In this document: positions 51,894 through 64,000 of the stretch, one piece after another
Numbering within the stretch: position 1 is the stretch's first letter
How the letters are laid out: every line of letters starts with the position of its first letter
Assembly (NCBI RefSeq): GCF_000160755.1
Contig: NZ_GG668578.1
Coordinates: 223,562 to 287,561 of the forward strand
Direction: 5' to 3'
DNA from: Proteus mirabilis ATCC 29906
GTDB taxonomy: Bacteria > Pseudomonadota > Gammaproteobacteria > Enterobacterales > Enterobacteriaceae
Length of the DNA stretch: 64,000 nt
Program-made: the position numbers and the translations under genes
Notes under the pieces: model-generated
What the model was told of the DNA's origin: nothing
Databases searched by the model: none
What the model saw: only the letters and a program-made list of their open reading frames with translations

Positions 51894-52934
51894 TTACTCA
51901 CGTTTTCTTTTCTGCTTTCGTTCACTGTAAAACAAGGCAATAGAAGGAATACTTTGAATGATCAACATGCGCAATATATGATTCGACATCACAAAAGCCG
52001 CATCGACATTCATAGTGATCGCGGCAAATGTCATTGCTTCCATACTTCCCGGTGCCCAAGCTAATACCAGCGTTGTCCAGGGAGCCCCTGTTAAATAAGC
52101 TGCGCTCAATGCAACGATCACCGTTAAAATAACGTTGATAATGACCACCTGCACAGAGGAAAAAGCATTTTTAATTAACGAAGCAAAAGGAAAAACCACA
52201 AAATGTGCGCCAATATTCATCCCAATTAACACCATACTGAGTTCATTTAATAGCATTGGAAAAGCAATCGGCTCACTGACAAAAGATTGTACCAATATTG
52301 CACTGCCTAATGATGTCAACATAAACGGTGCTGGAAAATGAATTTTCTGTAATAAAAGCCCAGATACTAGCCCTAACGCGACAATTAATAATAACCACAT
52401 CGATGACAACAGTGTCATTTCAGGTAATGTAAACTCCGTAAGGGTTGCTTTATCTGAGCCAACAATAAATCCAGCCATAATAATCAATACGATTAAACGA
52501 ATAGTATGAGAAATAACAATTTTTTGTGGTGGTGTTTTGGTATGATCTGTTAAAGCAAGAATAGCCGCCATCGCGCCAGGTACAGCGCCTAACATAGCCT
52601 CTTCTTTTGTCCAACCAATATGACGATGAAACCATAAGAAACTGACAACAAATTGAATGGCTAAACAAATAACGAGGATAATCAAAAGAAGCACTAAATT
52701 ATCCGCACTCCCTAAATGTACTTGGTTAAACATCAATCCAACAGAGGTGCCTAAGGTCAGTTGGATAAAAGTCAGTGTATGCTTAGGAACAGAGAGCTGC
52801 CATTTAAAACGATAAGCAATAATAACCACGACGATTGGCCCAAACATCAACGCCATCGGTAGACCAGATAATGTTAATAACCCACCAATTAGTGCACAAA
52901 ACAGAATTCCCGGTAGTTTTTTTAAAAATGACAT
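51894..52934 (-). CDS. AbrB-family membrane protein
   Basis: 346 residues, 9-10 hydrophobic helices, two repeated halves. GGLLTLSGLPMALMFGPIVV, GAVPGAMAAILAL and the matching second-half APGSMEAMTFAAITM are features of the family often labelled AbrB or ammonia monooxygenase. It is a membrane protein, not the DNA-binding AbrB of Bacillus. Function uncharacterised. The C-terminus is strongly basic (SERKQKRKRE). Confidence 0.85.
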   Translation of the reverse strand: MSFLKKLPGILFCALIGGLLTLSGLPMALMFGPIVVVIIAYRFKWQLSVPKHTLTFIQLTLGTSVGLMFNQVHLGSADNLVLLLIILVICLAIQFVVSFLWFHRHIGWTKEEAMLGAVPGAMAAILALTDHTKTPPQKIVISHTIRLIVLIIMAGFIVGSDKATLTEFTLPEMTLLSSMWLLLIVALGLVSGLLLQKIHFPAPFMLTSLGSAILVQSFVSEPIAFPMLLNELSMVLIGMNIGAHFVVFPFASLIKNAFSSVQVVIINVILTVIVALSAAYLTGAPWTTLVLAWAPGSMEAMTFAAITMNVDAAFVMSNHILRMLIIQSIPSIALFYSERKQKRKRE

Positions 52935-53047
52935 GTTGTGTTATCCAGTTTTTTTAATTATGGTACTAATCCTATCACTGGTATAAATATTTAATAAACA
53001 AATAATGATAATTTAAATATTATTTTTATTAATATTAAGAGCTAATT

Positions 53048-53458
53048 ATGTCATTAAAAATTACTACCGCCCCGACGACGAATGAAATCAACGAAATTTA
53101 TGAAGGCTTATTAACACATAACCTTCAGTATATTCAGATGGAGCAATATACGCCCTTAGCCGTTTTTAAAGAGGAAAATGGTAAAAAAATAGGTGGGATC
53201 ACTGGTGATATATTAGGTAATTGGCTACGTATTCGTTATCTATGGGTTGATAAGGCCTATCGTGGTAACAATATTGGTACAGAATTACTGCAAGCAATGG
53301 AAAATACAGCTAAAAAGAAAGGTGCCAAATATGCTGAGGTGGATACTTTTAGCTTTCAAGCCCTGCCTTTTTATCAAAAGCAGGGATTTGAAGTTTTTGG
53401 CACCTTAGAAAATTATCCGATTAGTGACAAAAAATATTATTTAAACAAAGTATTATAA
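53048..53458 (+). CDS. GNAT-family N-acetyltransferase
   Basis: 136 residues with one GNAT domain. The acetyl-CoA loop is YRGNNIGTELLQAMENTAKKKG, preceded by IRYLWVDKAYR, and followed by FYQKQGFEVFG. Substrate unknown. Stands alone between divergent and convergent neighbours. Confidence 0.9.
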   Translation: MSLKITTAPTTNEINEIYEGLLTHNLQYIQMEQYTPLAVFKEENGKKIGGITGDILGNWLRIRYLWVDKAYRGNNIGTELLQAMENTAKKKGAKYAEVDTFSFQALPFYQKQGFEVFGTLENYPISDKKYYLNKVL

Positions 53459-53488
53459 ATATTTTATACTATAAAATATTTATTTTCC

Positions 53489-55282
53489 TTATTCAGATGA
53501 GAACGCATAGTCGCTATCTATTATGTTAAATCCATCTACATTTAATTGTGTAAATACTTGATCTTCAATTAATTCAACAATATCAGCATATTTTATATCA
53601 CCTTCTTTTAAATTACCCTTATTTATATTATCTTCATCTAGTTCTGTTTCTTCCTGAATATAAGTTAAATTATATATTCCTTTCCCTATTAATTTACCTT
53701 GTTCTATCTCTTTCAGAAGAGGAATTAAAGTATATATTTCTTTCGATTCTAATTTACCTAGTTCTAACCCTTTCAGAATAGAAATTAAAGTATATATTTC
53801 TTTCAATCCTAATTGACCTAGTTCTATCTTTTTCAGAATAGAAATTAAATTATATATTTCTTTCGATTCTAATTTACCTAGTTCCATCCCTTTCAGAATA
53901 GAAATTAAATTATATATTTCTTTCCATTCTAATTTATCTAGTTCCATCCCTTTCAGAATAGAAATTAAAGTATATATTCCGTCCCATTCTAATTTATCTA
54001 GTTCTATCCCTTTCATAGTAGAAATTAAAGTATATATTTCGTTATCTTCTAATTTACCTCGTTCTATCTCTTTCAGAATAGAAATTAAAGTATATGTTTC
54101 TTTTCCTCCTATTTTATCTATTTCTATTTGTTCCAGAATAGAAGTTAAATCAGATATTTCATCGCCTTTAACATATTTATTTAATTTTCCCTGAATAATT
54201 TCACTTACTTCAGAAAGATTACGTTCAGAATCTAACTTGACATTATTAGTACTATTAACTCCATCAAGATCATCATCATCCCACTCAAAATCCCCCACAA
54301 AATAAGCGACATTATCATCTGTACTTTTATCCATTATTATTTCTTCACCACCATAAAACTTATTTATATATTCTTCAATCCAAATATTTTGCACTTTATT
54401 AAGTGAATACTTATATACGCAATCAATATTCGCTTCATTAAGAATTTCACCCATTATACTTTCTTCATAAAGAATTTTATTCATTATTTCCCGTAACTGT
54501 ACTGGAAATTCTTCTTTAAGCTGCTCTACCTCTACCATAAGAGGAAGATTATATTTTGAAACACAGACTAGAAAATTTATTTTAGACAGAAATTTTTCTT
54601 TCTCCTTATTACTTGAAAAATTAGCTAGTATTCTTTCATTGCTATTTTTAAATCGAGTTTCATTATCATACCTTACCAACACTTCATTAAATATTTTTAT
54701 AACATCTTCTTTTTTTATTCTTTCAACTCTTTCCTTAATAATATTTTTAAATTCATCCGCCAGACGATTATAATCTGTATTTGATGAATTTCTGCAAAAG
54801 GCCTCCGCTCGTTGCAACTCATTTAAATAATTGAAAAAACTATATCTATCTTTAAAACTTGAATTTTCATTCTCTATTAAAGAGAGAAAATGGTTTAGGT
54901 TATGATATTCAGCTGTAATTGTAGCTATCTCAGCTTTTTCCTTATCTACTGTATCTTTTTTTATTAGTTTATTATTAAACTCATCTATCTTACACTTTAA
55001 ATCTTTCACCTTAATCTTTAAATCAGTAAGTGTTTCAGTATATCTATTTAAATTTCCATCTCTATTACTTATTCCCATTCTACCGGTTTGGCTAATTGCA
55101 AAAAACATTGTAAATCGTTCCATCATATGAATAACTTTTTTTATAAAACTGGGCTTAGCCGTTGTATTAGAAATATCCTTTATGTTCTTTGCAAAAGTTA
55201 CATAACATGATCCTAAATAATCTTTCTTAGTAGATAACTCTATTCCCTTATTAAATACATCAATACCATTAACTCTATTCAT
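53489..55282 (-). CDS. Unrecognised protein with nine 20-residue tandem repeats
   Basis: 597 residues, Lys/Glu/Asn/Ile-rich, no signal peptide and no family recognised. The N-terminal half (about 75-200) is predicted coiled (LKIKVKDLKCKIDEFNNKL). An acidic patch DFEWDDDDLDG lies near 335. From about 369 to 550 come nine units of pattern Y-x-LISILKxxELgKLExKEI. Codon use and base composition are very AT-rich against the neighbours, suggesting transfer. The features suit a secreted or effector protein, but no secretion system is nearby; this is speculation. Confidence 0.8.
   Translation of the reverse strand: MNRVNGIDVFNKGIELSTKKDYLGSCYVTFAKNIKDISNTTAKPSFIKKVIHMMERFTMFFAISQTGRMGISNRDGNLNRYTETLTDLKIKVKDLKCKIDEFNNKLIKKDTVDKEKAEIATITAEYHNLNHFLSLIENENSSFKDRYSFFNYLNELQRAEAFCRNSSNTDYNRLADEFKNIIKERVERIKKEDVIKIFNEVLVRYDNETRFKNSNERILANFSSNKEKEKFLSKINFLVCVSKYNLPLMVEVEQLKEEFPVQLREIMNKILYEESIMGEILNEANIDCVYKYSLNKVQNIWIEEYINKFYGGEEIIMDKSTDDNVAYFVGDFEWDDDDLDGVNSTNNVKLDSERNLSEVSEIIQGKLNKYVKGDEISDLTSILEQIEIDKIGGKETYTLISILKEIERGKLEDNEIYTLISTMKGIELDKLEWDGIYTLISILKGMELDKLEWKEIYNLISILKGMELGKLESKEIYNLISILKKIELGQLGLKEIYTLISILKGLELGKLESKEIYTLIPLLKEIEQGKLIGKGIYNLTYIQEETELDEDNINKGNLKEGDIKYADIVELIEDQVFTQLNVDGFNIIDSDYAFSSE
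53641..54180 (-). repeat. Nine 60-bp tandem repeats inside the gene
   Basis: Exact 60-base period, visible as near-identical units starting at 53641, 53701, 53761 and so on to 54121. Central units are nearly identical in DNA; outer units are degenerate. Each encodes one 20-residue repeat in frame. Confidence 0.95.
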
Positions 55283-55413
55283 TTTATTGCCCTTACATTA
55301 ATAAATTAACTGTTTATTTTATTCTTTTTATCAATTTATACTTACAAAAATAACACAGTAGTAATTAATTAATCATTTACAATAAAAATCACATTTAATT
55401 TAAAATAGAAATA

Positions 55414-55443
55414 AAAAAAGATATCAAAAATGATATCTTTTTT
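55414..55443. terminator. Hairpin after yheO-like gene
   Basis: AAAAAAGATATCA (55414-55426), loop AAAA, TGATATCTTTTTT (55431-55443). Symmetric A/T flanks allow termination on both strands. Confidence 0.85.
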
Positions 55444-55495
55444 TAGTTTAATGATTTGTATTCCGCTGTAATTTAAAAAATAATTTATCGTTTAA

Positions 55496-56128
55496 TCATT
55501 CTTTTAAATCGTTATACACTGTTGCTCTTGAAACACCGAGATATTGCGCAGTAATTTCCATCGCTTTGCGAAGTGAAAGGTAACCTTCATCCTGTAAACA
55601 CAATAGCAATTCGCGTCGTTGATGCGGTTTCAATGCTCTTGGTGTCACTGAATAAGTTGCAGAAAATTCATCAATACGTTTTTTCAACGAATCTTCTGTT
55701 ACTGAGCTAAAAGTTTCAATGATATGATTTCCCTCTTCAAGAGTCGAAAATTGATTTAATACCATTTGTAAACCTTTAATCATCGATATATCAATATTTA
55801 AACATAAAGCAGCAACATAATTGCCTTGTTTATCTTTAATACCAATCGATGTACTTTTAGCTGTTCTACCATCAGGAAACTGATTAGGATAGTTTGCAAC
55901 AATTTGTGGAAAATCAGACGATTCAATCCTTGCCATACCTAGCTCAGTTGCTCTATCCCCCACTTTTCGACCTGATAGATTATTTTCAATCACCATAATG
56001 GTATTTTCACTATCGGTCAGATCATGAAGTACAACTTCACAAAAAGGCGATAATGTTTTACCAATGCCTTGTGCAATATATTTTAGTTGTTCTACCAGCC
56101 ACTCTTGGTCTGCAGTTTTGTGTGACAT
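55496..56128 (-). CDS. YheO/DauR-type transcriptional regulator
   Basis: 210 residues: PAS-like YheO domain (about 10-125; SPFCEVVLHDL, IGIKDKQGNYVAALCLNIDIS) and C-terminal HTH_22 (LKPHQRRELLLCLQDEGYLSLRKAMEITAQYLGVSRATVYNDLKE, residues about 165-210). Relatives control D-arginine or sulfur genes; here the target is unknown. The gene upstream is the TetR regulator in the same direction. Confidence 0.9.
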   Translation of the reverse strand: MSHKTADQEWLVEQLKYIAQGIGKTLSPFCEVVLHDLTDSENTIMVIENNLSGRKVGDRATELGMARIESSDFPQIVANYPNQFPDGRTAKSTSIGIKDKQGNYVAALCLNIDISMIKGLQMVLNQFSTLEEGNHIIETFSSVTEDSLKKRIDEFSATYSVTPRALKPHQRRELLLCLQDEGYLSLRKAMEITAQYLGVSRATVYNDLKE

Positions 56129-56261
56129 AACGATCCTACAATAGCTAAAACGTAAATGATTTATACAATTTTAACCGATTTATTCAAATAATTAATCGTT
56201 ATCTATCGGAAAATCTGACTTTGCCTGATTTAAAATAGCTTTAGCCATCCATTGGGTCATA

Positions 56262-56834
56262 TCAATGACCTGCTGATCGCTGATCATCCATTTTCCAGAT
56301 ATCTTTCATTACTAAAAAAACTTCAGAACCATAAATAAGTGAGAAAGCTTTTATCACTTTATCCCACATTTCTTGCGGATAATGCGCTTTTAATGGTTCG
56401 ATGACTTTAAGTAAGATCTCTTTACGATGACCACGAATAAATCGTTTTTCTGTATATTCGCTTGATTGTCGCTCTTTAGCCCACTGCTGTAATGAAACCT
56501 GCAATGCGCCACGCAACGCCCCTTCATGTTTAAACATTTGTGGATAAGCAAGATTGAGCAACGCAGTAATGCGCTGTTGTGTATTATCTTCTGGAGTGGG
56601 CTGCCATGCAATGATCGGTGCTAAACTTGCATCAACAGTAGCACTAATTAAATCACTTTGAGTGGGAAAATAGCGATACGCCGTTGCCCTTGAAACACCA
56701 GCATGTGCTGCAAGCTCTGATACGGTAGGTAACATCCCTTGTTCAAAAAGTTGCAATGCCGTTGTCACCAATAATTGGTAGGTTCTTTTTCGAGTACCTG
56801 ACATTGTATCTATTTCATTACGACTAAAACTCAT
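56262..56834 (-). CDS. TetR-family regulator, C-terminus lost by frameshift
   Basis: 190 residues as read. N-terminal helix-turn-helix LPTVSELAAHAGVSRATAYRYFPTQSDLI. The frame ends in DDQRSAGH. The minus strand carries GATCAGC twice in tandem at 56285-56272; removing one copy restores DDQQVIDMTQWMAKAILNQA and a stop at 56192, giving 211 residues and a normal last helix of this TetR group. So the C-terminal dimer helix is disrupted. Divergent from the Tm-1-like operon, whose upstream region has two palindromes suited to it. The protein may still bind DNA or may be inactive. Confidence 0.87.
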   Translation of the reverse strand: MSFSRNEIDTMSGTRKRTYQLLVTTALQLFEQGMLPTVSELAAHAGVSRATAYRYFPTQSDLISATVDASLAPIIAWQPTPEDNTQQRITALLNLAYPQMFKHEGALRGALQVSLQQWAKERQSSEYTEKRFIRGHRKEILLKVIEPLKAHYPQEMWDKVIKAFSLIYGSEVFLVMKDIWKMDDQRSAGH

Positions 56835-56969
56835 AAAAATTCCTTCGCTATTACTCCACTTTTCGTGGCTACTATACTGATTTTAAGAACTATTCTTAAT
56901 ACGATTAAAGTTTACTTTAGGCGATTGAGTGTACCTAAGCGACATTTAAAAGAGAAAAAATAAAAATAA

Positions 56970-56985
56970 TGAGACATGGGTCTCA
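56970..56985. promoter_or_regulatory. Palindromic operator 1 (TetR candidate)
   Basis: TGAGACATGGGTCTCA: perfect 6-bp arms around a 4-bp centre. Shares the pattern TGARAC-N4-GTCTCA with operator 2, 34 bp away, between the divergent tetR and Tm-1-like genes. Confidence 0.75.
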
Positions 56986-57003
56986 AAATAATGCTATTAT
57001 AAA

Positions 57004-57019
57004 TGAAACTCAAGTCTCA
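57004..57019. promoter_or_regulatory. Palindromic operator 2 (TetR candidate)
   Basis: TGAAACTCAAGTCTCA: one mismatch in the arms. 51 bp before the start codon of the Tm-1-like gene. Confidence 0.72.
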
Positions 57020-57069
57020 TTGTGATTATAATCTACACGTCAATAATCATAAAAGGTAAGGGAAGGCTT

Positions 57070-58281
57070 ATGAAACAGTATGCTGGCTTCATTTATATTG
57101 CGACTACGCTTGATACTAAAAGCGCTGAAATTTTTTATGTCAGTGAATTAATAAAAAAAGCAGGCCTTCCTGTCAAAACCGTAGATTTGACAACCAAACC
57201 TACAGCATTAGAAAGAGAAGCTGACGTCACAGCTGCACAAGTTGCTAGTTACCATCCAGATGGAAAAAACGCCGTGTTTTGCGGTGACCGCGGGAAAGCT
57301 ATCGCAGCAATGTCCGTCGCTTTTGAACGTTATTTAACCCACTGTGACGATGTCCTCGCTATTTTAGGATTAGGCGGCTCAGGGGGAACGGCATTGATTA
57401 CACCAGCAATGCAATCTTTGCCCATTGGCGTACCTAAATTGATGGTATCGACTATGGCTTCCGGTGATATCTCCGGATATATCGGCGCTAGCGATATTTC
57501 AATGATGTACTCCGTAACAGATGTATCCGGCTTAAACCGTATCTCTCGTAAGGTATTGAGAAATGCGGCCAACCAAATTGCCGGCGCTGTTTATTTTTAC
57601 CAAGACGAAAATAGTGTTGATAAACCGGCTGTTGCATTAACGATGTTTGGTGTAACTACGCCTTGTATTCAACAACTAACTAAAAAACTTGAAAATAATT
57701 ATGACAGTTTAGTTTTCCATGCGACGGGGAGTGGCGGTAAAGCCATGGAAAAACTGATAGACAGCCACTTACTTCATAGTGTTCTGGATCTAACAACAAC
57801 CGAAGTATGTGATTATTTATTTGAGGGTGTCCTTGCTTGTGATGAAGATCGTTTTGGTGCCATCGCCCGCACTAAAACACCTTGTATCGTCTCTTGTGGC
57901 GCGTTGGATATGGTGAACTTTGGTCGCCCTGCTACCGTTCCTGAGAAATATAAAGATCGTCATTTCTATCACCATAATTCGCAAGTCACCTTAATGCGTA
58001 CAACACCAAGGGAAAATTGTCAAATGGGGATCTGGATCGCTGAAAAATTGAATCAGTGTGAAGGCCCACTGACGTTTATTTTTCCACAGGGCGGTTTTTC
58101 TGCTTTAGATATTGAAGGGGGACCATTCTGGGATCCTCAAGCAAACCAAGCATTTTTTGATGCATTTATAACAACATTTAAAGAGACCGAGACTCGTCAA
58201 TTAGTCATCAGTCCATATCACATAAATTCTGCTGAATTTAATCAGCAAGTTTATGATTTACACCAGGAACTTATTTGTTAA
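57070..58281 (+). CDS. Tm-1-like ATP-binding domain protein (UPF0261)
   Basis: 403 residues from ATG 57070, preceded by AAGGGAAGG; the frame is open to 57022. N-terminus [21 protein letters not shown] and the glycine-rich [17 protein letters not shown], then [31 protein letters not shown] and [14 protein letters not shown], are features of UPF0261. It corresponds to the N-terminal ATP-binding half of tomato Tm-1, a protein that blocks tomato mosaic virus replication. The cellular role in bacteria is unknown. The next gene encodes the other half. Confidence 0.9.
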
Positions 58282-58297
58282 CCACGGAGAAAGAAGT

Positions 58298-59125
58298 ATG
58301 ACTTATTCACGTGAAGTGTTACTCAAAAAATTTAATGACATGATCGCACGTAAAGAGCCTATTATTGGTGGCGGTGCGGGAACAGGCCTTTCCGCAAAAT
58401 GCGAAGAAGCAGGCGGTATCGATCTGATTGTTATCTATAATTCAGGTCGTTATCGTATGGCGGGTCGTGGCTCTCTGGCAGGATTATTAGCCTATGGCAA
58501 TGCCAATGAAATTGTTATGGATATGGCAAAAGAAGTATTGCCTGTTGTAAAACAGACACCTGTACTTGCCGGGGTTAATGGTACAGATCCATTCTGCAAT
58601 TTTGATAAGTTTTTAGATGACGTTAAAGCCATCGGTTTTGCTGGCGTACAAAACTTCCCAACCGTTGGTTTAATTGATGGTAACTTCCGCGCTAATCTAG
58701 AAGAAACGGGTATGGGTTATGCTCTTGAAGTAGAGATGATCCGTAAAGCACATGAAAAAGGCTTACTCACAACACCTTATGTTTTTAGTCGTGAAGATGC
58801 CATTGCAATGACACAAGCTGGTGCAGATATTATTGTTCCTCATATGGGTTTAACCACTGGTGGCAATATTGGTGCAGAAACAGCCGTTACTTTAGATGAT
58901 TGTGTCGCCCTTATTAACGATTGGGCAAAAGCAGCAAAATCCGTACGCTCTGACGTGATTGTACTTTGTCATGGTGGCCCTATAGCAACACCAAAAGATG
59001 CGCAATATATCCTTGATAACTGTCCTGATTGCCATGGTTTTTATGGCGCAAGTTCAATGGAACGTTTACCAACAGAAGTCGCTTTAACTGCAACAACAAA
59101 AGAGTTTAAAAATATTAAACGCTAA
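58298..59125 (+). CDS. TIM-barrel, PEP-hydrolase-family protein (Tm-1 second half)
   Basis: 275 residues from ATG 58298 (GGAGAAAG ribosome site), 16 bp after the upstream stop. [49 protein letters not shown] is a family block (residues about 20-68); [32 protein letters not shown] and [16 protein letters not shown] follow. Belongs to the family called phosphoenolpyruvate hydrolase-like, found downstream of or fused to UPF0261. Enzyme activity not established. A terminator follows. Confidence 0.88.
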
Positions 59126-59160
59126 TCTCAAATCATCAAGTTTGCCTAAGCGTTGATCCT

Positions 59161-59188
59161 ATTGCCCACATCATGTGGGCAATATTTT
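59161..59188 (+). terminator. Terminator after Tm-1-like operon
   Basis: ATTGCCCACAT / ATGTGGGCAAT (59161-59171 with 59173-59183), then ATTTTATTT. Confidence 0.85.
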
Positions 59189-59209
59189 ATTTGCAAGAAG
59201 CCTAACTGA

Positions 59210-60109
59210 TTACACCAGTTTTGCGATTAATGTATTTAAATCCCCTGCTAAAAAATCAACGGGGGGAATTTCAATCACAGTATAGGCACCCGCTTGTTGT
59301 TTCATACTTGCTCTGGCTGCAGAAACCATAAATTGAGATGTTAATGCTGGATTATTAATATGCATAGCATATTCAAATAATTGATTGTGTGTTTTGCCTG
59401 ACACCCCTTTATGGGTCATTTGTACTCCGTGACCAACATCTTTTAAGCTATCAACACTATCAACTTGTTTAATATGTGTTTCATCAGATGAGAAATAGCT
59501 GTCGGCCTTAATGGCTTGCTCAACCTGTGCAAAGTTAGCACCCGTTTCTAATTCAACATAAACCATACGCCGATGAACACCAGTACCTAATGGAATAGTC
59601 ATTGATAACGCATCTCTTACCCCATCAATAGCTTTAGCGGCAACACTATGACCCATACTCATACCGGGACCAAAATTAGTGTAGGTAATACCTTTAGGTG
59701 CCATAGCTAACATTAAGGTACGAATAATAGAGTCTGAACCCGGATCCCAACCCGCTGAAATCACTGCAACACGGTTATGCTTTTTCGCCACCTCATCCAG
59801 TTCTGTTTTTAATGCAACGATATCACTGTGGACATCAAAACTATCAACGGTATTAATACCTAAGCTCAATATCGATTTAGCCAAATCTTTAATGGCTCTC
59901 GTTGGTGAACATAATAAAGCAACATCCACCTTACCTAAGCTTTTAATATCATTTGTTACTGTTATATTTCGCAGTTCATCTGGAATATTTTGACTATCAC
60001 GGCGAACTACCCCCACTAACTCAAAATCAGGTGCTGCAAGTACTGCATCTAGTGCAAAGCGCCCAATATTGCCATAGCCCACAATAGCGACTTTTATTTT
60101 AGTATTCAT
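59210..60109 (-). CDS. ddh: meso-diaminopimelate D-dehydrogenase
   Basis: NADPH-dependent one-step route between tetrahydrodipicolinate and meso-DAP. 299 residues. Rossmann start KVAIVGYGNIGRFALDAV, then VDVALLCSPTRAI, SAGWDPGSDSIIRTLMLAMAPKG and FGPGMSMGHSVAAKAIDGVRDALSMTIP. The length and motifs suit the type found in Proteus vulgaris. Most enteric bacteria rely on the succinylase route (dapD) only. Stands alone. Confidence 0.92.
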   Translation of the reverse strand: MNTKIKVAIVGYGNIGRFALDAVLAAPDFELVGVVRRDSQNIPDELRNITVTNDIKSLGKVDVALLCSPTRAIKDLAKSILSLGINTVDSFDVHSDIVALKTELDEVAKKHNRVAVISAGWDPGSDSIIRTLMLAMAPKGITYTNFGPGMSMGHSVAAKAIDGVRDALSMTIPLGTGVHRRMVYVELETGANFAQVEQAIKADSYFSSDETHIKQVDSVDSLKDVGHGVQMTHKGVSGKTHNQLFEYAMHINNPALTSQFMVSAARASMKQQAGAYTVIEIPPVDFLAGDLNTLIAKLV

Positions 60110-60307
60110 TTATTTCCCTGTTCTCGTTGTTAATCATTATTGAATGATAATAATGTTTAATAATCAACGAATAAACCATATAAAAAGTTTTTTTGCTACT
60201 GGTTCATCAATTTAGCTATTCCCTTATTCATAAAGCATGTAAAATCGCTCCACTTTCCTCTGATTATATTTACAACACTATTTCACTCGTTTTTAAGAAG
60301 GTTTTCA

Positions 60308-61648
60308 ATGCATCAATCTGATGTAGCGGATCGCTCACTTTTTTCCCTTAGCTGGCCTATTTTTATTGATATTTTTCTTCATCTTGCCACGCTATTGATT
60401 AACACTTACATGATAAGTCATGTCTCTACTGCCTATTTAGCTGCAATGGGCGTAGGTAACCAAGTTTTTGATCTTTTTATCACCATATTTAACTTTATTA
60501 GCGTGGGATGTAGCGTTGTTATTGCTCAATATTTAGGCGCCGGTAAGCGCGATAAAGCCAGTCAAGCTATTCATATTTCTATCGCCTTTAACTTTTTGCT
60601 GGGCTTTAGTAGTGCCATTATTATTCTCTTTTTTGGCTACAACATTCTAAATGTAATGAATACGCCAGAGCATTTAGTACAAGATGGCTATAACTATCTC
60701 CATATTTTGGGGATTTGTCTTATTCCTGAAGCAATTTCAATTATCTTAGCAGCCTGTTTGCGGGTTTATGGTAAATCGAAAGCGGCGATGTATGTGACGT
60801 TAATTGCCAATATTGTCACTGTTATCGGCAATATGATTGTACTATATGGTTTCTTTGGGCTTCCACAATACGGTTTAGTGGGTGTTGCATGGTCAACGGT
60901 TGTCGGTCGTATTATTGCCGTTGTCTTATTATGTGGTCTTTTATTCTATGGATTAAGAATTAAGTTCGATATAAGACTATTAGTGATTTGGTCTAAAAAT
61001 ATGTTAGCTAAAATTCTACATATTGGTTTACCTGCTGCAGGTGAAAACCTAGTGTGGATTCTACATTATATGACCGCCTCTGCCTTTATAGGATTAATGG
61101 GAGAAGTTCCTCTCGCCGCACAAACACTCTATTTCCAACTATCATTATTCTTAATGTTATTTGGCATTGCGATTAGCATTGGTAATGAAATATTAGTCGG
61201 TCATTTAGTTGGTGCAAAACGATTTGATGATGCATTTACACGGGGTTTTAAAAGCTTAAAAGCAGGTGTGCTATTTACTATTGGTGTGGTGATTATTTAT
61301 TGGTTTATGCGTGATCCTATTTTGTATTCTATCACCGAAGATCAACGCATTATCGACCAACTGTTGCCTTTATTTATTTTATCGGTCTTTTTGGAGCCTG
61401 GGCGTACATTTAATATTGTTATGGTTAATGCGTTACGTGCAGCCGGAGATGCCAAATTCCCACTCATTACAGCCGTTTGTTTTATGTGGGGAGTTGCTAT
61501 TCCTATTGGCTATTTCCTTGGTATAAAAATGGAAATGGGTTTAATTGGGATTTGGATAGGTTTTCTTTGCGATGAGTGGCTACGAGGCTTAACAAATGCA
61601 TGGCGTTGGCGCTCTCGTAAATGGCAAGCTAAGCGCTTAGATATTTGA
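60308..61648 (+). CDS. MATE-family multidrug/cation exporter
   Basis: 446 residues with 12 hydrophobic segments in two repeats. FSLSWPIFIDIFLHLATLLINTYMISHVS, NQVFDLFITIFNFISVGCSVVIAQYLGAG and the second-half AQTLYFQLSLFLMLFGIAISIGNEILVGHLVGAK are typical. Na+ or H+ driven export of cationic compounds; substrate unknown. Confidence 0.9.
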   Translation: MHQSDVADRSLFSLSWPIFIDIFLHLATLLINTYMISHVSTAYLAAMGVGNQVFDLFITIFNFISVGCSVVIAQYLGAGKRDKASQAIHISIAFNFLLGFSSAIIILFFGYNILNVMNTPEHLVQDGYNYLHILGICLIPEAISIILAACLRVYGKSKAAMYVTLIANIVTVIGNMIVLYGFFGLPQYGLVGVAWSTVVGRIIAVVLLCGLLFYGLRIKFDIRLLVIWSKNMLAKILHIGLPAAGENLVWILHYMTASAFIGLMGEVPLAAQTLYFQLSLFLMLFGIAISIGNEILVGHLVGAKRFDDAFTRGFKSLKAGVLFTIGVVIIYWFMRDPILYSITEDQRIIDQLLPLFILSVFLEPGRTFNIVMVNALRAAGDAKFPLITAVCFMWGVAIPIGYFLGIKMEMGLIGIWIGFLCDEWLRGLTNAWRWRSRKWQAKRLDI

Positions 61649-61655
61649 TGCTCTT

Positions 61656-61685
61656 TCAAGGCCTAATAATATTATTAGGCCTTGA
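61656..61685 (+). terminator. Perfect palindrome after MATE gene
   Basis: 30-bp perfect palindrome centred AATAATATTATT with AAGGCC arms, 7 bp after the stop. Lacks a T-run but is placed as a terminator. Confidence 0.65.
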
Positions 61686-61771
61686 GAAACTAGCTATAAA
61701 TAAGTTAACTTGCTACATTATTCATTAATGATTTTAAATTTATTTAAGCTTTATAATTCATGCTTATCATT

Positions 61772-62413
61772 TTATTTATCGCCATTTTTTACAAGATTTT
61801 TATCTTTAGCCAGTGAACGACTAACCGTCTCATTTATACTATTTGATAAAAAATATTTATAATTATTAATATTCCCAAATTCAGATTTTATTTTTTCGTC
61901 TGAAGTTAATATGCTATCGATGATTGATGCTAAAAATTTATTTTTAATCTCAGTTAAAGACAAGTCATTAGTAGATGATAAAATACTTTTAGAGTGAGAA
62001 TGTAACTCATCCTCAAATTGTATAATTTTTCCTTTCTCTAATGTAGGTTTTTCTTCTAAAACAGAGATAATATCATTAATGATTAAATTTATTATTTCAT
62101 CAACTTTAAACTTTTTGTGTACTTTAGATAAATCTCCAAATTTATCATTATCATCTTTCATTGAGTGAGGCGTGTTTATTACTTTATTATCTGATTGTAT
62201 ATTTTCATTCTTTTTCATATTTTCAATATTAGAAATATGAACTTTAAATTCTGAATTATTTGAAGTTTTATGAAAAAATGGTTTTATAAAAGAGGATATT
62301 GTATTATAACAACTTAATATAGCTGATTTCAATTTTGTATTAAATTTATAACTCTCATTATTAATGCTTTTTAGCGATAATGGAGTGTTTTTAAAATAAC
62401 TTTTAATTTGCAT
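61772..62413 (-). CDS. Unrecognised Lys/Asn/Ser-rich protein
   Basis: 213 residues, no family recognised and no signal peptide. Composition is dominated by Lys, Asn, Ser, Ile. The N-terminus MQIKSYFKNTPLSLKSINNE is polar and basic, then a long linker, then a helical C-terminal part (VDEIINLIINDIISVLEEK, NKFLASIIDSILTSDEKIKS). Very AT-rich, like the repeat protein at 53.5-55.3 kb and unlike the flanking backbone, so transferred DNA is likely. The N-terminus is compatible with a secreted effector, but this is a guess. Confidence 0.65.
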   Translation of the reverse strand: MQIKSYFKNTPLSLKSINNESYKFNTKLKSAILSCYNTISSFIKPFFHKTSNNSEFKVHISNIENMKKNENIQSDNKVINTPHSMKDDNDKFGDLSKVHKKFKVDEIINLIINDIISVLEEKPTLEKGKIIQFEDELHSHSKSILSSTNDLSLTEIKNKFLASIIDSILTSDEKIKSEFGNINNYKYFLSNSINETVSRSLAKDKNLVKNGDK

Positions 62414-62815
62414 ATCTGCTCCCTAATAGATTTAGCAGAATTAAATATTATACTTTCGCTAAATTCTATCAATAAGTAATTAATTTTTAGTTAATTACTC
62501 ACCACTATCTTCACAAATAATTTTAAACATCAAAAATCACTAAAAAAATCAATAAATTACACTAGCAAAAACTTATTTTTGTTTTTTCTAAAAATAATTA
62601 TACTTTAAAATATTTTCATAATTAAAAACAGTTTTTTAATAATGAAAAAACAAAAATTAAACATTGATTAACATTAAAATTTTCTTGTAAAAAAAATTAT
62701 TTTTTTATAATTCTTTAATGCTTTTTTTGTGATAAAAGTAACTGTTGTTCATTCTCAATAATGAGACAACAGAATTTTATTAAATAAAATACAAAAAACA
62801 CAACGGAGTCTAATC
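62414..62815. other. Very AT-rich region upstream of pepT
   Basis: About 400 bp without a gene; long A and T runs. Near the end lies an imperfect inverted repeat CTGTTGTTCATT (62742-62753) with AATGAGACAACAG (62760-62772), 44 bp before pepT, a possible operator. Confidence 0.45.
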
Positions 62816-64000
62816 ATGAACATTGTTGATCGGTTTATTTCTTACACCAAGGTGAATACTACAACAAATAGAGAAAATGGCGCCGCGGGGATTATGCCTT
62901 CATCGGAAGGTCAGCGAGTCCTCGCTTTACAATTAGTCGAAGAGTTAAAGGCGTTAGGTGTTGAAGATATCAAAATTCGCGATACCGCCATTGTTACCGC
63001 GACACTACCTTCTAACCTTGATTATGAGGTTCCTACCGTGGCTTTCTTTGGTCACTTAGATACCAGTGCAGAACAAACTAATGATACTAAAGCACAAATT
63101 TTACCTTATAAAGGTGGCGACCTTTGCTTAAACAAAGAACTTGAGATTTTTTTACGTCAAAGTGAATTCCCTGAATTAGAAAACTATATTGGTGACGATA
63201 TCATCGTAACAGATGGTACTAGCTTATTAGGCGCTGACGACAAAGCGGCTATCGCCTCTATTATGGATATGTTGCAATATTTTAAACAACATCCAGAAGT
63301 CAAACACGGTACAGTTAAAATTGGTTTTGTACCCGATGAAGAGCAAGGTTTACGTGGTGCAAAAGCCTTTGATGTAACAGAATTCGGCGCAGACTTTGCT
63401 TATACCTTAGATTGTTGTGGTATTGGTGAACTTGTATATGAAAATTGGAATGCCGGTGATGTTGAAATAACCTTTATCGGAACCTCAGCACACCCTATGT
63501 CAGCAAAAGGTAAATTAAAAAATTCACTGTTAATGGCTCATAAATTTATTGCGATGTTACCGGGCGGTGAAGCACCGGAATATACTGAAGGTCGTGAAGG
63601 TTATTATTGGGTAAAACAACTGGCGGGTAATAGCGCACGTACTGTATTAAAAATGGATGTGCGTGATTTCACAGAAGCAGGCTACGCCCATCGTATGGCA
63701 TTTTTAAAACAACTTTCAGAGCAATGTGAAGCGTTATGGGGTGAAGGGACTGTTGTTTGTAAGCAAGCCGATCGTTATGCAAATGTCTTTAATAGCCTAC
63801 AAGGTGAAAATCGATATCCTATCGATATTGCTATTGATGCTTATAAAGCCAATGGTATTACCCCTCGTCCAATCCCTATGCGGGGTGGCTATGATGGAGC
63901 AGCATTATCGCAAAAAGGATTACCTTGCCCTAATATCTTTACCGGGGCGCACAATTTCCACTCTATTTATGAATATCTTCCCGTTAAATCGCTTTATGCT
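62816..64000 (+). CDS. pepT: Peptidase T, 3' end outside window
   Basis: Cytoplasmic zinc tripeptidase of the M20 family. ATG 62816 with CGGAG before it; 395 codons are visible of about 408. VPTVAFFGHLDTSAEQTND holds the first zinc His/Asp, DGTSLLGADDKAAIA the bridging Asp, PDEEQGLRGAK the catalytic Glu, and ISGTSAHP-type FIGTSAHPMSAKGK the M20 dimer region. RPIPMRGGYDGAALSQKGLPCPNIFTGAHNFHS near the visible end is typical PepT. Confidence 0.96.
   Translation, partial: MNIVDRFISYTKVNTTTNRENGAAGIMPSSEGQRVLALQLVEELKALGVEDIKIRDTAIVTATLPSNLDYEVPTVAFFGHLDTSAEQTNDTKAQILPYKGGDLCLNKELEIFLRQSEFPELENYIGDDIIVTDGTSLLGADDKAAIASIMDMLQYFKQHPEVKHGTVKIGFVPDEEQGLRGAKAFDVTEFGADFAYTLDCCGIGELVYENWNAGDVEITFIGTSAHPMSAKGKLKNSLLMAHKFIAMLPGGEAPEYTEGREGYYWVKQLAGNSARTVLKMDVRDFTEAGYAHRMAFLKQLSEQCEALWGEGTVVCKQADRYANVFNSLQGENRYPIDIAIDAYKANGITPRPIPMRGGYDGAALSQKGLPCPNIFTGAHNFHSIYEYLPVKSLYA

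Follow-up and report, generated by a model that had tools for sequence, protein, structure and literature searches.

The operon and its regulator

The window (the whole 64-kb stretch of DNA that was analyzed) holds a gene for a UPF0261 protein, followed by one for a TIM-barrel protein of the PEP_hydrolase family (hereafter PEPH), with a TetR-family gene divergent from them and palindromic operators in the shared gap (Table 1). A pair of this kind, 16 bp apart at 57070-59125, had been proposed in a sequence-only reading of the same DNA, and both the coordinates and Pfam bear it out. The UPF0261 protein (COG5441) carries two Pfam domains in one chain, PF06792 (E 9.5e-61, 205.3 bits) and PF23189 (E 3e-88, 295.2 bits), each exceeding its cut-off of 27 bits. 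PEPH (COG5564) matches PF09370 at E 1e-135 and 451.6 bits (cut-off 33.8), over profile positions 3-267 of 267. The two genes are in different frames and do not form one polypeptide as in a Tm-1-type fused protein. Further upstream in-frame starts are available (57022, GTG; 58253, ATG), so the gene starts chosen here are ones that we infer. A genome search returned a single UPF0261 match and a single PF09370 match in the whole genome. The PEPH sequence is 99.6% identical to a P. mirabilis record and 93-95% identical to the versions in ten other Proteus loci. An Rfam scan of positions 52000-64000 gave nothing that reached the gathering score.

Table 1. Coordinates of the operon and its control region in the window
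Feature	Position	Strand	Evidence
UPF0261 protein, 403 aa, homolog of the Tm-1 N-terminal domain; proposed small-molecule kinase	57070-58281	+	Pfam, phmmer, model, tree
PEP_hydrolase-family (PF09370) TIM-barrel protein (PEPH), 275 aa, family of the Tm-1 C-terminal domain; proposed enzyme for the UPF0261 product	58298-59125	+	Pfam, model
Intergenic gap, 16 bp, with ribosome-binding-like stretch GGAGAAAG	58282-58297	+	sequence
Divergent TetR-family regulator, 190 aa	56262-56834	-	PF00440, E 9.9e-9
Operator 1, TGAGAC-N4-GTCTCA, perfect palindrome, TGAGACATGGGTCTCA	56970-56985	.	pattern scan
Operator 2, TGAAAC-N4-GTCTCA, with one mismatch, its start 34 bp from that of operator 1, TGAAACTCAAGTCTCA	57004-57019	.	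pattern scan
Best promoter-like site, 10/12, first hexamer overlapping operator 2	57003-57032	+	weak; 10 sites found vs. shuffle mean 6.8, sd 2.1
Terminator-like stem-loop with T tail, 3' of the operon	59160-59184	+	hairpin search

By Pfam, the genes around the pair encode the TetR regulator, a YheO-like regulator, a diaminopimelate (DAP) dehydrogenase, and, one gene away from the pair, a MATE protein. Among the loci examined, only those of Proteus, Providencia, Morganella, and Moellerella have the MATE neighbor. The meso-diaminopimelate dehydrogenase (59210-60109, minus strand; TIGR01921, 358 bits) is an enzyme that is unusual in Enterobacterales, and its homologs, in the loci examined, cluster in the same four genera. 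Two other minus-strand ORFs of the window matched no family in Pfam, NCBIfam, PADLOC, or PHROG: one of 213 aa (61772-62413) and one of 597 aa (53489-55282), the C-terminal half of which consists of repeats of a unit of ~22 residues like KLESKEIYTLISILKGMELG.

The TetR_N domain and the palindromic operators in the shared gap together give the arrangement of a TetR-regulated divergent operon. The two operators are the sole matches to their pattern at no more than one mismatch in the 64 kb (shuffle mean 0.05; none of 100 shuffles reached two). A TetR homolog is divergent from the pair in loci of Enterobacterales, Orbaceae, and beta-proteobacteria, and a site with at least 11 of the 12 fixed bases occurs in the TetR-side gap in 58 of 63 rows with such a homolog (17 of 20 genus labels), a set that includes many near copies and counts the window and Pragia twice each. 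This set spans Proteus, Providencia, Morganella, Kosakonia, Serratia, Gilliamella, and Bordetella; the five rows in which a site of this quality is missing are Cricetibacter (L056), two Erwinia loci (L064 and L085), and two plasmids (L113 and L115). In Pragia, the TetR gene and operator directly precede PEPH, and UPF0261 is elsewhere in the genome. The pair of TetR operators claimed from the sequence is thus well founded, in that the two palindromes are unique in the window and recur in most TetR-bearing relatives. The accompanying suggestion, that a dedicated divergent TetR implies a small-molecule signal, also holds up, as a regulator with operators of its own would fit small-molecule control. 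Promoter-like sites show no clear enrichment in the region overall (counts in Table 1).

To look for a wider regulon, the operator pattern was scanned at no more than one mismatch on one strand of eight genomes, with the reversed pattern as a control. Seven perfect sites were found in five of the eight genomes, and all are identical to operators listed for the operon itself. Counts of sites versus control were 6 versus 3 for the window, 4 versus 2 (G583), 5 versus 6 (G584), 8 versus 5 (G585), 6 versus 10 (G586), 1 versus 0 (G587), 2 versus 10 (G588), and 7 versus 0 (G589, Bordetella); one-mismatch sites outside the operon are close to the control level in most of these genomes. The Bordetella genome (locus L089) has six extra one-mismatch sites against a control of zero, and a wider TetR regulon is possible there.

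PEPH was detected in 44 of 198 genomes of the window's family. Broken or fragmentary matches within this family (G057, G184, G078, and G114) suggest that the operon is dispensable and able to decay. Among 398 Pseudomonadota genomes sampled, PF09370 occurs in 27 and UPF0261 in 38 (37 above the cut-off), and all 27 genomes with PF09370 also carry UPF0261 (compared by eye). A similar co-occurrence, in 491 of 504 bacterial genomes, was reported from RefSeq (Yang et al. 2016; PMC5028733).

Copies are also found on plasmids. The conjugative IncFII plasmid pJSRIV006_1 of Serratia (L113) carries a compact TetR-UPF0261-PEPH cassette that has Hcp and colicin genes no more than 5 kb away; its TetR gap is without the usual operator (best site 8/12). 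A fragment comprising 17% of PEPH recurs on Klebsiella and E. coli plasmids (H49-H60, among the matches listed), and of 300 records in which PEPH has a match of any extent, 57 are from Klebsiella.

Kinship with Tm-1 and with Saro_1862

The UPF0261 protein and tomato Tm-1 match at E ~1e-91 (phmmer), with 169 of 399 aligned residues identical. Its AlphaFold2 model (mean pLDDT 90.6) matches the Tm-1 structures (PDB 3wrv, 3wrw, 3wrx, and 3wry) at Z 44-45, and matches PDB 9mpy at Z 33.5 (rmsd 7.8 over 387 residues). UDP-GlcNAc 2-epimerases come next at Z ~11, with the match lying largely in the first domain (in the VIA-align lists for this protein and for PEPH, a fold that is not listed is not necessarily absent). 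In a tree of 78 UPF0261 sequences (a short search without bootstrap, with long branches flagged and supports of 89 and 85), the window protein and Tm-1 fall into the same 65-row branch (support 89), together with the LivF-type fusions described below. PEPH lies within 2 kb in 63 of these rows, is fused in Tm-1, and is missing in one. Tm-1 retains 70 of the 72 positions conserved in this branch, and all 34 positions that are conserved at ≥95% across the 78 sequences.

The relationship between split and fused forms is not new. Yang et al. (2016) described the two domains as split in prokaryotes and fused in plants, and as co-occurring and co-evolving, with Tm-1 homologs in nearly all sequenced land plants (PMC5028733). 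In Tm-1, the C-terminal TIM barrel is fused to the N-terminal domain (PMC5028733; PMC3855732). The proposal that the bacterial pair represents the split halves of Tm-1 is supported, in that the two genes are homologous to the two halves, and was anticipated in print. The difference is that Tm-1 is a single fused plant protein that inhibits ToMV replication, whereas the bacterial proteins are encoded by separate genes under TetR. Tm-1 residue 91, which is T or I in two PDB variants, aligns to D73 of the window protein, an Asp in 91% of the branch. Tm-1 residues 79-112 are reported to be under positive selection (PMC3855732); this segment is not clearly less like the bacterial protein than the rest (12/30 versus 169/399 identical).

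By its record title, the structure 9mpy shows the Novosphingobium aromaticivorans UPF0261 protein Saro_1862 with acetovanillone bound. In Novosphingobium, the first step of acetovanillone catabolism is reportedly carried out by MarK, a single-component kinase (PMC13101465), and MarK is probably Saro_1862. We found six Saro_1862 homologs in 119 genomes of one family. In the four close ones (65-81% identity), a divergent IclR gene is followed by UPF0261, BCCP, and biotin carboxylase genes, with carboxyltransferase and HAD hydrolase genes next in three of the four (the contig of the fourth ends); names are from Pfam for one locus and from tblastn for the others. The two remote homologs (33-35%) are without carboxylase neighbors. 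The Hpe pathway has the order kinase, carboxylase, phosphatase (PMC12167813; PMC13101465; PMC9618137), and the close Saro_1862 loci show this order with UPF0261 in the kinase slot. The statement that the bacterial function is not established is consequently out of date for the UPF0261 family, for which the acetovanillone-bound structure, the report on MarK, and the carboxylase operons indicate a role in aromatic catabolism.

Saro_1862 has the same two-domain UPF0261 fold as the window protein and keeps 33 of the 34 family-wide positions, which argues for one chemistry across UPF0261, and the window protein shows the family-wide conserved residues, as a MarK-type protein should. However, the two proteins (124 of 394 residues identical) are on opposite branches of the family. 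The window protein falls outside the Saro_1862 branch in the 78-sequence tree, where Saro_1862 groups with PEPH-less proteins, and Saro_1862 keeps only 46 of the 72 positions conserved in the window's branch, so its chemistry may differ. M192, F193, T242-T244, and L308-M309 are consistently unlike between the two branches. The close relatives of Saro_1862 are found beside biotin carboxylase and, contig permitting, HAD hydrolase genes, a MarK-type setting that is absent from the window, with no carboxylase or phosphatase near the pair.

The two-component phenol dikinases HpeHI, AcvAB, CreHI, and PpsAB, for which MarK reportedly substitutes, phosphorylate a phenolic substrate (PMC12167813; PMC13101465). 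HpeHI consists of an ATP-grasp component and a swivel-domain component, and is unrelated to UPF0261 and PF09370 (PMC12167813). An identification of HpeHI or AcvAB with UPF0261 plus PEPH was considered, and it is wrong for HpeHI on these grounds. The window pair has neither an ATP-grasp nor a His swivel domain, as its Pfam matches are to UPF0261 and PEP_hydrolase models only.

The TIM-barrel partner and the neighbors of the pair

The PEPH model (AlphaFold2, mean pLDDT 78.8) matches 2p10 at Z 31. This is Mll9387 of Mesorhizobium loti, a TIM barrel that is 66-67% identical (Foldseek; phmmer E 1.6e-126) and related at the level of an ortholog; a solved structure is all that we found for it, with no paper under the name mll9387. 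At Z 17.6 follows 4ml9, an uncharacterized barrel with a title that names a conserved phosphate-binding site, and then, all at Z ~15-16, the barrels of PEP mutase / isocitrate lyase, IGPS, NanE, and TrpA. The PEP mutase / isocitrate lyase superfamily is therefore among the next-nearest folds, equaled by IGPS, NanE, and TrpA and exceeded by 4ml9. Members of that superfamily have Mg-binding acidic residues after strand 3 (DxD). When PEPH was compared with seven PF13714 proteins by hhalign, the alignment was confined to residues 9-50 and had a probability of 4%, and a 10-residue segment inspected by eye is without DxD.

The PEPH domain also occurs fused to a sigma-54 activator with HTH_8 (by Pfam on L160). 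In L160 (11267-13444, minus strand) and nine other cases, PEPH is at the front of long sensor-type proteins, several of them near a pair-type PEPH gene. We compared 51 stand-alone pair-type sequences with these 10 sensor-type sequences, which are related, post hoc, and with truncated sensors and a miscalled ORF set aside. Twelve positions, including K34, Y47, H182, H225, and E255, are kept in 51 of 51 stand-alone proteins and in no more than two of the 10 sensors. G226, G227, G247, S252, R256, P258, and E260 are kept in both groups (at least nine of 10 sensors), and the sensor versions thus retain the glycine-rich loops. This pattern, chosen after the fact, fits a stand-alone PEPH that would be an enzyme, with sensor relatives that may have kept ligand binding and lost catalysis.

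The neighborhood survey covered 125 loci of at least 9 kb, with 53 genus labels. Neighbor genes were called with a simple longest-ORF script, which misses genes in GC-rich genomes, and presence was therefore recounted by tblastn. An in-frame fusion of UPF0261 to a LivF-type ABC ATPase is present in 18 of the 125 loci (10 genus labels; L127, L130, and 16 more), and in five more loci (four genus labels) a LivF-type ATPase gene directly adjoins UPF0261. Pfam places ABC_tran at residues 26-166 of one fusion, UPF0261 at 326-494, and UPF0261_C at 507-722. The fusions are surrounded by Liv genes for permeases and binding proteins and by SRPBCC genes, joined in some cases by flotillin-like and zinc-dehydrogenase genes. 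BMP-type or sugar ABC genes are present at other alpha-proteobacterial loci and also on annotated plasmids. Transporter proximity was counted without a random-locus control, of which the in-frame fusions are independent. The Pararobbsia locus (L088) combines a TetR homolog and an 11/12 operator with SRPBCC and Liv/Urt-type genes behind PEPH. Separately, a PEPH-less UPF0261 group (L146-L157 and L164) lies beside class III aminotransferase, aldehyde dehydrogenase, and IclR genes, in some cases with TctABC, and probably represents another uncharacterized pathway.

A survey of this kind had been suggested as a check on the original reading. Relatives lie with importers and catabolic genes, but in the window itself the importer, SRPBCC, and other marker proteins, TetR apart, had no match within 6 kb of the pair (4.9 kb available downstream).

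Function of the pair

We lean toward the view that the window pair is a TetR-controlled catabolic operon of two genes, in which UPF0261 is a small-molecule kinase and the TIM-barrel protein an enzyme that acts on its product. By analogy with its relatives, UPF0261 would use ATP to phosphorylate a small organic substrate. PEPH would then bind the phosphorylated product, probably at the glycine-rich beta-7/beta-8 loops, and convert it by bond cleavage or rearrangement. The divergent TetR would occupy the two operators over the promoter region until the substrate, or a compound derived from it, releases the regulator.

Alternatively, the pair may be catabolic with UPF0261 using ATP in some way other than as a kinase (e.g., acid activation or ligation), which would leave the MarK-like branch as a specialized exception. 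The deep separation of the two branches and the consistent differences between them noted above are in keeping with this, as is the other large PEPH-less group, with its aldehyde dehydrogenase, class III aminotransferase, and IclR genes and no carboxylases. The near-complete retention of the family-wide positions by Saro_1862 speaks against it, and we regard it as unlikely. That the TIM-barrel partner is instead a ligand sensor or scaffold, and the pair a signaling module, is decidedly unlikely: the sigma-54 activator fusion and an older family name, “TIM-barrel signal transduction” (PMC5028733), would suit such a role, but the five residues singled out above (K34 to E255) are kept by stand-alone PEPH and mostly lost in the sensors. 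It is improbable, too, that the pair serves self-protection by modifying a toxic small molecule, such as an antimicrobial phenolic, for which TetR would be the drug sensor. TetR control, the lack of an importer match near the window pair, the MATE gene one gene away, and the Serratia plasmid cassette near Hcp and colicin genes are all compatible with self-protection; against it, the MATE neighbor is confined to four genera among the loci examined, and, within Liv import operons, relatives occur as fusions to ATPases.

A phage-defense system that mirrors the antiviral action of Tm-1 is highly improbable in our estimation, and the suggested antiviral role in bacteria finds no support. Beyond homology to Tm-1, it has in its favor a mutation table for phage-resistant Cutibacterium strains, which includes an intergenic change beside a “Tm-1-like” gene and draws no causal link there (PMC12733950). 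Neither UPF0261 nor PEPH had a match in 50,697 phage records or in IMG/VR (a peptide-pattern search), or was matched by a PADLOC or PHROG model, and their relatives lie beside importers and catabolic genes. The window TetR has a weak, 23-residue PADLOC match to mad1 (E 1.3e-4). In a defense-island scan of 78 neighbor proteins from 18 loci (of 101 listed, leaving out TetR and short proteins), 33 PADLOC families matched at E ≤1e-5, of which 25 were listed. The strongest, DpdF (E 3.6e-192 in L095), is a RecQ-type helicase that also accounts for the PsyrT match; other matches traced lead to ClpB in L066 (and to an L089 protein that gives those hits too), to MutY in L064, and to a partial mad2 match in L068. 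The remaining matches among those listed, which are untraced, are to subtilase, TRIP13, mad3, mad8, and a second REase_II, and there are eight unlisted families besides. A Brucella UPF0261 gene came from a signature-tagged mutant screen (PMC2364660), a result that could fit metabolism.

Returning to the catabolic kinase operon, the presence of the Tm-1 N-terminal domain in the same branch, with conserved residues kept, suggests that the antiviral role probably arose later, through a new use for a metabolic enzyme. Kato et al., in 2014, are said to have found that ATP bridges the interface between Tm-1 and the helicase. We tentatively suggest, at somewhat less than even confidence, that a single enzyme system, made up of a small-molecule kinase and a TIM-barrel enzyme that binds phosphate, unites Tm-1 with its bacterial relatives; that this system is in many cases coupled to an importer (even by fusion to a LivF-type ATPase); and that plant resistance arose where the ATP-bound surface of the kinase was turned against the viral helicase.

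The Tm-1 kinship of the pair was already known; what is added here is the kinase-centered reading, from the aromatic-bound relative, the operon context, the importer fusions, and the conservation in Tm-1. The LivF-UPF0261 fusions would physically couple import to the first metabolic step, which would be unusual. For the plant resistance protein, the kinase reading is a testable hypothesis about the original function of Tm-1. It links the N-terminal half of Tm-1 to a family with a probable kinase member, and the bacterial two-protein versions offer a simple system in which to find the reaction.
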